Position numbers and translations under genes: made by a program
NCBI GenBank assembly: GCA_937871435.1
Contig: CALMQM010000101.1
Coordinates: forward strand, 1 to 64,000
Direction: 5' to 3'
Length of the DNA stretch: 64,000 nt
Source of the DNA: an uncultured Bacteroidota bacterium
Lineage (GTDB): Bacteria; Bacteroidota; Bacteroidia; AKYH767-A; 2013-40CM-41-45
The notes under the pieces: model-generated
Told to the model about the DNA's origin: nothing
The model's database searches: none
Seen by the model: only the letters and a program-made list of their open reading frames with translations
Shown: piece after piece, positions 48,621-52,786 of the stretch
Numbering within the stretch: the first letter of the stretch is position 1
How the letters are laid out: the number at the start of each line of letters is the position of its first letter

Positions 48621-48896
48621 AGCGTTCAAGTGAAATAGAAAAACCTTAAAAATCAATTTTTTCTGATTTCAGAATAAATCCAAACGATTTGAGAATAAAG
48701 TTGCTTAAATGCATTAATTTCAAGGCTTTTCAAAAAAAATTGATCTCAAAAAAATATTAACAATTGAACTTTTGAGGTCCAAAACCTCCCTTCCGGACTG
48801 GTTTCAGACTGATCAGAAAGCCTCATCAGAGGATGATTCCGGTCCGGATTTGATCCGGGTTTTGCTTCAAAAATTTACGATTGAACGGCAAACATC

Positions 48897-48904
48897 TATT
48901 TTTG
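48897..48904 (+). promoter_or_regulatory. mutY -7 box
   Basis: TATTTTTG matches TAnnTTTG exactly and ends 20 nt before the ATG at 48925. It confirms that ATG over the far upstream TTG. Confidence 0.55.
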
Positions 48905-48924
48905 TCGGTTATAAATTTCCGGTA

Positions 48925-49983
48925 ATGTCATTCGGCGATATACTCTTACACTGGTATCAGAGGAACAAAAGGGAACTTCCATGGAGGTCAACCAGGAACC
49001 CTTATTACATATGGCTGAGTGAAATTATATTGCAGCAAACCCGGGTTGAACAGGGTTTGAATTATTACCTCCGCTTCATTGAAAAATATCCGGATGTAAA
49101 AAAGCTGGCAGAAGCTCCGCTTGATGAAGTATTAAAAATGTGGCAGGGACTCGGTTATTATTCCAGAGCCAGAAACCTGCATGCCGCGGCAAAATTCATT
49201 GTAACACATCATGATGGAAAATTCCCGGATCATTATGAAGCAATACGTAATCTGAAAGGTGTAGGTGATTACACAGCGGCCGCCATTTCCTCCTTTGCAT
49301 TTGATGAAAAGCAGGCAGTAGTAGATGGAAATGTATTTCGTTTTCTCAGTCGGTATTTTGGCATTTCCACTCCGATTGATTCCGGGAAAGCAAAAAAAGA
49401 ATTCCGTGAAATAGCATTTGGCTTGATGGATAAACATGCACCGCATGAATTCAATCAGGCAATCATGGAATTTGGATCTAAACAATGCAAGCCCGGTTCA
49501 CCGGATTGCAGCAATTGCCCGATGAATGTATCCTGTTTTGCATTTGAAAACAACAGGGTTAATGATTTTCCAGTAAAAAATAAAAAACTCAAAGTAAAGC
49601 ACAGATACTTTCATTATCTGATAATAAAGAGTGGCAAATCCATCTTTATTCAAAAAAGAACAGAGAAGGATATTTGGGCTGAGCTCTATGATTTCCCTTT
49701 ATTAGAATCAGACAAAAAACAAAGTGAAAAAAAATTTCTCAGTTCTGATGAATGGAAACAGTGGTCAAAGCAACATCCGGTAGTGATTGACAAAATCAGT
49801 TCAGAAAAAAAACACCTGCTGAGTCACCAAACGATACATGCCCGATTTATTCATTTGCGACCGAAGAATGAGAAGACATTTAAACCTCAAAAAGGATGGA
49901 TTCTGGTGAATAAAAACGGATTCAGGAAATATGCAATCCCACGACTGACAGATCGCTATTTAGCCGCTGAACCGGCATTCTGA
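48925..49983 (+). CDS. mutY: A/G-specific adenine glycosylase
   Basis: MutY removes adenine mispaired with 8-oxoguanine. The 352-residue protein begins MSFGDILLHWYQRNKRELPWR. Motifs are EIILQQTRVEQG with the catalytic Glu region near residue 35, the helix-hairpin-helix LKGVGDYTAAAI near 110, and the 4Fe-4S cluster motif CKPGSPDCSNCPMNVSC near 195. A C-terminal NUDIX-like domain (about 220-350) reads 8-oxoG. Start and promoter agree. It forms a conserved neighbourhood with ssb and gldE/gldD downstream. Confidence 0.96.
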   Translation: MSFGDILLHWYQRNKRELPWRSTRNPYYIWLSEIILQQTRVEQGLNYYLRFIEKYPDVKKLAEAPLDEVLKMWQGLGYYSRARNLHAAAKFIVTHHDGKFPDHYEAIRNLKGVGDYTAAAISSFAFDEKQAVVDGNVFRFLSRYFGISTPIDSGKAKKEFREIAFGLMDKHAPHEFNQAIMEFGSKQCKPGSPDCSNCPMNVSCFAFENNRVNDFPVKNKKLKVKHRYFHYLIIKSGKSIFIQKRTEKDIWAELYDFPLLESDKKQSEKKFLSSDEWKQWSKQHPVVIDKISSEKKHLLSHQTIHARFIHLRPKNEKTFKPQKGWILVNKNGFRKYAIPRLTDRYLAAEPAF

Positions 49984-50233: not shown

Positions 50234-50653
50234 ATGAGCGGAGTAAACAAAGTAATCCTGATTGGAAACGTCGGCAAAGATCCTGAAGTAAGGTATCTTG
50301 AAGGCGGAGTACCTGTTGCAAAATTCCCATTGGCAACAAGTGAAGTGTATAAAAACAAAGAAGGTCAAAAAGTTGAAACGACCGAATGGCACAATATCGT
50401 GTTGTGGCGTGGTCTTGCGGAGATCGCTGAAAAGTGGGTGCGCAAAGGCAACAAAATATACATCGAAGGAAAAATCCGGACCAGAAGTTATGGTGAAGAA
50501 AACAATAAGAAGTGGTTCACTGAAATCGTAGCCGACAACATGACTATGCTCGGTGGCGGACCACGCAACGATTCTGAAAACAAAATTCCGGAACCGGTGA
50601 ATGCTGACACTCCACTGCCAACTGCAGCACCAGCTGATGACCTGCCATTTTAA
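50234..50653 (+). CDS. ssb: Single-stranded DNA-binding protein
   Basis: SSB protects and organises ssDNA in replication and repair. The 139-residue protein has the OB-fold pattern MSGVNKVILIGNVGKDPEVRYL, WHNIVLWRGLAEIAEKWVRKG and YIEGKIRTRSY. A short acidic/Pro-Ala linker follows, with the conserved tip DDLPF that recruits partner proteins. It is followed by a perfect 15-bp inverted repeat (50666-50704) and then the gldE-gldD ORF. Confidence 0.95.
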   Translation: MSGVNKVILIGNVGKDPEVRYLEGGVPVAKFPLATSEVYKNKEGQKVETTEWHNIVLWRGLAEIAEKWVRKGNKIYIEGKIRTRSYGEENNKKWFTEIVADNMTMLGGGPRNDSENKIPEPVNADTPLPTAAPADDLPF

Positions 50654-50839: not shown

Positions 50840-52786
50840 TTGAACCCTGATAGTTGCCAATTGCTTATACTCTTACAGGATTCTCCCTCCTATCTTAACC
50901 CGACCTTTTCCTTTTCTCTTGGATATATTTTTGAGGCAGTAGTGCTTGCTTCACTCTTGTTGCTTTCCGGTTTTTTTTCCGGAGCGGAAACCGCATTCTT
51001 TGCTATCAATCCGACACAACTATTTACTTTAAAAGAATCTGAGCGCAATGCGTCCAGATTGGTTTATAAATTACTGGAAAAGCCAAAACGATTGTTGGCA
51101 ACACTATTAATCACAGTCAATTTTATCAATATCGCCATCGTCGTAATTTCTTCACTGATGATTTCCCAGGTGTTTGACTTTTCACAACATCAAACGATAG
51201 GTTTTCTGATCCAGGTTGTCGCCGTTACCTTTGTGATTGTTCTTTTCTGTGAAGTGATGCCGAAAGTGTATGCTACACAAAACGCTCTTTCATTTTCACA
51301 GTGGAGTTCTATCCCTGTTTTTCTGGTCGACAAAATCCTTCGCCCGCTTAGCAGCCTGCTTGTATTTTCTACTTCTATCGTTGACAAACGTATGGTTCAC
51401 AAAGGCTATGACGTTTCCATGGATGAACTGACACACGCCATCGATGTAACAACAGATAAAAACACACCGGATGACGAAAAGAAAATCCTGAAAGGAATCG
51501 CGAAGTTCGGGAATATCGATGTGCGACAGATTATGAAATCGCGGATGGACGTGATAGCGTTTGACAAAACTCTCACCTTCCCTGAATTGTTTCCTGTTAT
51601 CGTGGAAAATAAATATTCCCGTGTACCGGTTTACGAAGGATCTTTTGATACTGTCATTGGAGTACTGTATATAAAAGATCTTCTGCCCTTTCTGCACAAA
51701 CAGGATGATGCATCATTTGATTGGTTGAAAATAGTGCGTCCCGCATATTTTGTTCCTGAAAGCAAGAAAATCAATGACCTTCTGCAGGAATTTCAGGAGA
51801 AGAAAATCCACCTTGCAATTGTAGTGGATGAATACGGAGGCAGTTCCGGAATCGCGACGATGGAAGATGTACTGGAAGAGATTGTCGGCGAAATCAACGA
51901 TGAATTTGATGACGATGAAGTTTTTTATTCTAAACTTGATGACAACAATTATGTGTTCGAAGGCAAAACCTTGTTGAATGATCTAAGCAGGGTCACCGAG
52001 ATTGATCGTGATCTTTTTACAACCGGCGATTCTGATGCTGAAACTCTCGCCGGATTTATTCTTGAAAAGAAAGGCAGTATTCCATTCCGTAACGAAGTGT
52101 TTACTCATGAAGGGATTCAATTTACAATTGAATCTGCCGACAGAAAAAGAATTAAACGTGTAAAGGTGACATTACCGGAAAAGAAAACTAACTCCAGTGA
52201 TGATGGCAATCATTTCGGAATGATGGCTCTGATTCCATTGCTCTTTATTCTCAGTCTCAGTTCCTGCGACCAGGATTACGTTCCAAAACCAAGAGGATAT
52301 TTCAGAATTGCTGTTCCGGAAAAAGCCTACACTACATTCTCTCCCGAAACTTGTCCTTTTCAATTTGACATTCCGGTATATTCTGAAATAGTAAAAGATC
52401 CCTCACCCAAAGCTGAACCCTGCTGGATGAATATTGAATTCCCAAAATTCAAAGCGACTGTTTACCTGAGCTATAAAGATGTAAAAGGGGATTTGAACAA
52501 ATTCATTGAAGACAGCCGATCACTTTCTTTCAAACATATTTCTAAAGCTTCAGGTATTGAAGAAGCGAATATTTCCGATCCGGTTCATCGAGTATTCGGA
52601 ACAAGCTACCAGGTAAAAGGAAACGCTGCATCCTCTTACCAATTTTTCCTCACAGACAGTACGCATCACTTTCTGCGCGGCTCATTGTATTTTTATGCAA
52701 TCCCGAATCCGGATTCACTCGCACCGGTCAATGATTTCATTACAAAAGACATTGAACATCTTATCGAAACTTTTCGCTGGAAATAG
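50840..52786 (+). CDS. gldE: GldE-GldD fusion ORF (CNNM/CorC-type membrane protein plus gliding lipoprotein)
   Basis: Residues about 1-460 are GldE. They comprise three or four N-terminal helices with the DUF21 motif SGFFSGAETAFFAINPTQL, two CBS domains (RQIMKSRMDVIAFD onward; FVPESKKINDLLQEF to EEIVGEI), and a CorC/HlyC domain up to RIKRVKVTLPEKK. Without any stop codon the frame continues through MMALIPLLFILSLSSC (residues 461-476, a lipoprotein signal with lipobox SSC) into GldD (about 477-648: KPRGYFRIAVPEKAY to the terminal HLIETFRWK). In relatives these are two adjacent genes. The start is taken at TTG 50840, since no ATG fits. It may be a true fusion, or gldD may be translated from ATG 52220. 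Both proteins are linked to gliding and type IX secretion. Confidence 0.88.
   Translation: MNPDSCQLLILLQDSPSYLNPTFSFSLGYIFEAVVLASLLLLSGFFSGAETAFFAINPTQLFTLKESERNASRLVYKLLEKPKRLLATLLITVNFINIAIVVISSLMISQVFDFSQHQTIGFLIQVVAVTFVIVLFCEVMPKVYATQNALSFSQWSSIPVFLVDKILRPLSSLLVFSTSIVDKRMVHKGYDVSMDELTHAIDVTTDKNTPDDEKKILKGIAKFGNIDVRQIMKSRMDVIAFDKTLTFPELFPVIVENKYSRVPVYEGSFDTVIGVLYIKDLLPFLHKQDDASFDWLKIVRPAYFVPESKKINDLLQEFQEKKIHLAIVVDEYGGSSGIATMEDVLEEIVGEINDEFDDDEVFYSKLDDNNYVFEGKTLLNDLSRVTEIDRDLFTTGDSDAETLAGFILEKKGSIPFRNEVFTHEGIQFTIESADRKRIKRVKVTLPEKKTNSSDDGNHFGMMALIPLLFILSLSSCDQDYVPKPRGYFRIAVPEKAYTTFSPETCPFQFDIPVYSEIVKDPSPKAEPCWMNIEFPKFKATVYLSYKDVKGDLNKFIEDSRSLSFKHISKASGIEEANISDPVHRVFGTSYQVKGNAASSYQFFLTDSTHHFLRGSLYFYAIPNPDSLAPVNDFITKDIEHLIETFRWK
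52220..52786 (+). other. gldD: Possible separate gldD start inside the fusion ORF
   Basis: ATG at 52220 (or 52223) would give a 188-residue product of normal GldD length. It begins with a lipoprotein signal peptide (MMALIPLLFILSLSSC), so Cys16 could be lipidated. Separate initiation here would restore the usual GldD lipoprotein while the long ORF makes the fusion. Confidence 0.5.

Follow-up and report, generated by a model that had tools for sequence, protein, structure and literature searches.

One reading frame for GldE and GldD in several families of Bacteroidia: a putative polyprotein with an internal lipoprotein signal

The window, by which we mean the whole 64,000-nucleotide stretch of DNA analysed here, contains on its plus strand a single stop-free frame at 50840-52786 that encodes 648 amino acids and comprises GldE, a short linker and GldD, both proteins being complete. 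The GldE profile TIGR03520 matches residues 38-445 with 515 bits against a curated cut-off of 376 (profile positions 3-407 of 408), and the GldD profile TIGR03512 matches residues 468-648 with 239 bits against a cut-off of 120 (positions 2-182 of 182). Pfam domains follow along the frame in the order CNNM, two CBS, CorC_HlyC and GldD_lipo. With both profiles above their cut-offs and no stop between them, the original prediction that gldE and gldD are joined in one frame with the lipobox retained holds. The frame, annotated here with a TTG start, is open in the same way at 27 loci. Upstream of the first transmembrane helix the frame contains no ATG, and a TTG (at 50840 or at 50861) or some other alternative start codon would be used.

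All parts of the gene lie on the plus strand. The CNNM transmembrane domain of GldE (residues 37-208, 50948-51463; PF01595, E 3e-36) is modelled with long helices at 27-54, 82-111 and 118-147, and is followed by the cytoplasmic part, a CBS pair and CorC_HlyC up to residue 446 (51464-52177; PF00571, PF03471). A disordered linker of residues 447-460 (52178-52219) covers the usual end of gldE, since the GldE of split relatives ends about here. Two in-frame ATGs come next (residues 461-462, 52220-52225), at the positions 52220 and 52223 given in the original prediction; they open the hydrophobic segment that corresponds to the former GldD signal peptide (residues 461-475, 52220-52264; modelled helix 465-473). 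The lipobox LSSC occupies 52256-52267 and ends in Cys476. From the ATGs to this cysteine the fused protein reads MMALIPLLFILSLSSC, which is found at residues 461-476 as claimed before. Mature GldD (residues 476-648, 52265-52783; TIGR03512, PF25593) forms a separately folded domain in the model. The residues after the lipobox cysteine (52268-52279 and the equivalent positions in relatives) are often acidic in fused genes (DQDY, DEEF, GDDY, EDDY) and less strongly so in split ones; they recall the lipoprotein export signal of Bacteroidota (PMC5080379).

The AlphaFold model, built with an alignment of 100 rows, has a mean pLDDT of 87.6 and a pTM of 0.48. Its modules are confident (GldE at about 27-444 and GldD at about 497-648) and are separated by disordered stretches at 451-462 (pLDDT below 50) and 475-485; the low pTM reflects that no confident packing of GldE against GldD is predicted. 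The modelled GldE part matches the fold of the archaeal CNNM protein 7m1t (MtCorB), and its CBS part matches 7cfi with a TM-score of 0.90 by target length. A second CNNM/CBS paralogue lies outside the window, about 24 kb downstream (G000:C101:76196-77440), and scores under the GldE cut-off; paralogues of this kind are found in most relatives.

Upstream of the fused gene are ssb (50234-50653, +; PF00436) and mutY (48772-49983, +; PF00730, PF14815). The order mutY-ssb-gldE-gldD is also present in Parabacteroides, and in Flavobacterium psychrophilum gldD likewise has mutY and ssb upstream (PMC5682007). The fused gene therefore sits in the normal locus and is not the result of a rearrangement.

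Within the GTDB family of the window (f1), the joint frame is open in 8 of 11 genomes. The seven fused relatives share 52-67% identity with the window, and the remaining members G001, G006 and G010 are split. The original prediction would have been undermined by uniformly split genes in sister genomes, and this is not what the family presents. Fusions were seen in six further families (f8, f9, f14, f25, f31 and f32), reaching 6 of 8 genomes in f31, 7 of 16 in f32 and 3 of 9 in f14. Of 395 Bacteroidia genomes sampled evenly, 257 gave a match at E-values up to 1e-100, at least 26 of them fused. After removal of duplicates we retained 27 fused and 103 split loci, a ratio that is not a prevalence, as the fused set was enriched through the choice of families. 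Two candidates for further fusions, G384 and G284, have long open frames, yet are split. G010 is counted as split since the end of gldE and gldD lie in different frames on contig C123. All sampled loci named as Bacteroidales, Chitinophagaceae, Flavobacteriaceae or Hymenobacteraceae are split, which suggests that the split state is very likely the ancestral one.

Across the linkers of the fused loci there are no stops in the coding frame versus 46 and 30 in the two other frames, although the zero is partly a matter of definition, since an open frame is what made a locus count as fused. Likewise, linker lengths within fused clades vary by multiples of three (69-99 nt in f1, 84-90 nt in f31), which is again partly by definition because out-of-frame loci were counted as split. 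A second, free GldD was sought in the 27 fused genomes and none was found. As the fused copy is the sole GldD match in each of them, the fused gene must supply the GldD function.

A tree of GldE plus GldD with the linker excluded (127 rows) requires 10 changes between the fused and split states, at least eight of them forced by supported branches. The more careful tree of 59 rows requires 11, at least nine of them forced, with 10-11 over the bootstrap trees. The counts do not say which of these changes are fusions and which are returns to the split state; f1 may have seen both kinds. Judging from these trees, related bacteria have acquired the gldE-gldD join several times. Within genus g2, G008 is fused (L008) and G001 and G010 are split (L013, L176, L177), so that the state changes on short time scales. 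The split gene pair of G001 has a four-base ATGA overlap between gldE and gldD. Among split genes in general, the ATG of gldD precedes the end of the gldE stop codon in 56 of 86 cases, with a median overlap of four bases. Because such short overlaps, with the two genes in different frames, are frequent, an indel of one or two bases can join gldE to gldD; such an indel across the overlap, by which the gldE stop or frame break would be lost, is a likely route to fusion.

The lipobox cysteine is present in all 27 fused loci, as is a small residue (S, G or A) at position -1, while L, F or I stands at -3 in 26; the lipobox pattern as a whole is passed by 25. The hydrophobic stretch before the cysteine is no weaker than that of split genes. 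We defined a usable GldD start as an ATG 14-40 codons before the cysteine followed by a net positive n-region. Such a start is found in 96 of 102 split loci and in none of the 27 fused ones. Paired on the tree, 8 of 8 independent pairs agree in nearly all random pairings and 7 of 7 in the remainder (sign test, median p 0.008). The ten residues before the hydrophobic segment contain on average 1.78 acidic residues in fused loci versus 0.21 in split loci (p 3e-15, relatedness ignored); p-values that ignore relatedness overstate certainty, and the more trustworthy tree-paired version gives a weaker contrast (median p 0.03). The uncharged run is also longer in fused loci (18 versus 15 residues). 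The acidic flank and the longer run would fit an internal transmembrane segment and not an N-terminal signal peptide. Whereas a standard lipoprotein carries its signal at the N-terminus with its own start and a charged n-region, the signal of fused GldD is internal (residues 461-475). GldE and GldD are thus encoded by one frame that has neither a stop between them nor a proper start for the second protein.

We propose that GldE-GldD is a polyprotein from which Lgt and signal peptidase II (LspA) release mature GldD at Cys476, a reading to which we assign a probability of roughly 0.7 and whose topology, lipidation, cleavage and sorting are deduced from sequence. Both proteins would be translated as one chain, the CNNM domain inserting in the inner membrane and the CBS/CorC part and the C-terminus of GldE staying in the cytoplasm. 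Members of the CNNM/CorC family carry their CBS and CorC parts in the cytoplasm. A hydrophobic segment that follows them would therefore run outward through the membrane and bring the lipobox to the periplasmic side; the former GldD signal peptide would act here as an internal N-in/C-out transmembrane helix. Lgt would then lipidate Cys476 on the periplasmic side and LspA would cut before it, freeing mature GldD as a lipoprotein, and the old signal helix would remain on GldE as a C-terminal anchor. LspA was found in 26 of the 27 fused genomes; none was detectable in G130, a fused genome that is 95% complete.

A fusion that stays uncut, the strongest competing account, would hold GldD in the periplasm, joined to GldE through the transmembrane segment, and would fix the two partners together permanently. 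It gives the right topology without any cleavage, and the neighbourhood of GldE and GldD across the class suggests that they work jointly. However, a mere tether needs neither the lipobox cysteine nor the small residue before it, and both are kept in every fused locus over several changes on the tree; LspA, too, is present in nearly all of these genomes. Since the cysteine is retained throughout, we favour cleavage. The periplasmic tether that the original prediction derived from a real fusion is conceivable, as is an uncut chain that carries the lipid, and we regard such a tether as unlikely as the final state of the protein. The release of GldD might also be the work of a protease other than signal peptidase II that cuts in the linker, which is disordered in the model, but the sequence and length of the linker vary strongly among fused loci and the lipobox does not; we consider this account very improbable.

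Initiation inside the joint frame would make GldD the main product and the long form a minor readthrough. The window itself offers ATGATG at 52220-52225, and some ATG 14-40 codons before the cysteine remains in 7 of the 27 fused loci, but these starts are not conserved, our survey of the 27 loci having ruled out a conserved internal ATG. Relatives such as L006, L008, L132 and L147 have no ATG, GTG or TTG in that range. When GTG and TTG are allowed within 27 codons, only L141 is rescued, as a plausible signal might begin at its TTG; within 40 codons they are found in seven fused loci, most often as a GTG that lies within or beside the conserved GldE end. The window ATGs would yield a signal without any positive charge before the cysteine, and the idea that they give rise to the lipoprotein thus finds no support. 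Because all fused loci have lost the ATG with a charged n-region that split genes so regularly have, internal initiation is unlikely as a general route, and we give it little weight for the GldD of the window as well. As for an assembly or sequencing error that removed the frame break, the fused and related genomes with known titles come from metagenome assembly, and one window on its own might contain an indel. Nevertheless, 27 distinct loci are in the same state, and f1, f31 and f32 each contain groups of fused relatives, so that the indel at the end of gldE suggested earlier is rejected and an error is extremely improbable. A real fusion, shared by these loci and old in several clades, is what the comparison supports.

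Release of GldD from a polyprotein would extend beyond the window. We think it probable that these genes represent a natural class of bacterial polyproteins with several origins in Bacteroidia. Each chain would hold a multi-pass protein of the inner membrane and a lipoprotein, which Lgt and signal peptidase II would part at a lipobox inside the chain, and the former signal peptide would stay behind to anchor the first product in the membrane at its C-terminus. The fusion ties GldE, a poorly understood protein of CNNM type, directly to GldD, and its repetition is genomic evidence that the two act in one place and in matching amounts. GldK, a core lipoprotein of type IX secretion and gliding, scored above its cut-off in all 31 genomes searched. 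In a Foldseek comparison the predicted fold of GldD (52265-52783) is similar to that of PsbP/CyanoP (best E-value 3.5e-5, TM near 0.5; spinach PsbP 2vu4) and less so to that of DcrB. Some PsbP-like proteins help to assemble photosystems, and a similar role would fit the need of GldJ and GldK for GldD in order to be stable. In F. johnsoniae, GldJ and GldK depend on the lipoprotein GldD (PMC9127263).

Because more than 450 residues, in the membrane and in the cytoplasm, precede the signal of fused GldD, the fused genes are natural substrates with which to ask if lipoproteins can mature without a signal at the N-terminus. The recurrent GldE-GldD fusions may be seen as natural trials of lipoprotein processing where the signal is internal, and predictors or annotation limited to N-termini would miss lipoproteins of this kind. 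We know of no lipoprotein whose processing from an internal signal has been demonstrated. The literature that we searched, which excluded most subscription journals, describes neither a joined gldE-gldD gene nor a lipoprotein that is freed at an internal signal. Domain databases probably list the GldE-GldD architecture automatically.

Compared with the separate gldE and gldD genes of, e.g., Flavobacterium and Parabacteroides, the fused gene is alike in having both complete domains above their cut-offs and in its order behind mutY and ssb; it differs in having one frame, a GldD without its own start or charged n-region, and an internal signal. The GldE part is similar in sequence and fold to the CNNM/CorC magnesium transporters (MtCorB 7m1t, bacterial CBS 7cfi), but it belongs to the Bacteroidota subfamily and has here an added C-terminal transmembrane segment followed by GldD. 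A like design is reportedly found in FbcH of Bradyrhizobium, a cytochrome b/c1 polyprotein in which a membrane protein and an exported partner are made in one chain and split at an internal signal. FbcH is said to be cut by signal peptidase I, whereas GldE-GldD retains a lipobox for signal peptidase II, at which we infer cleavage from the sequence.
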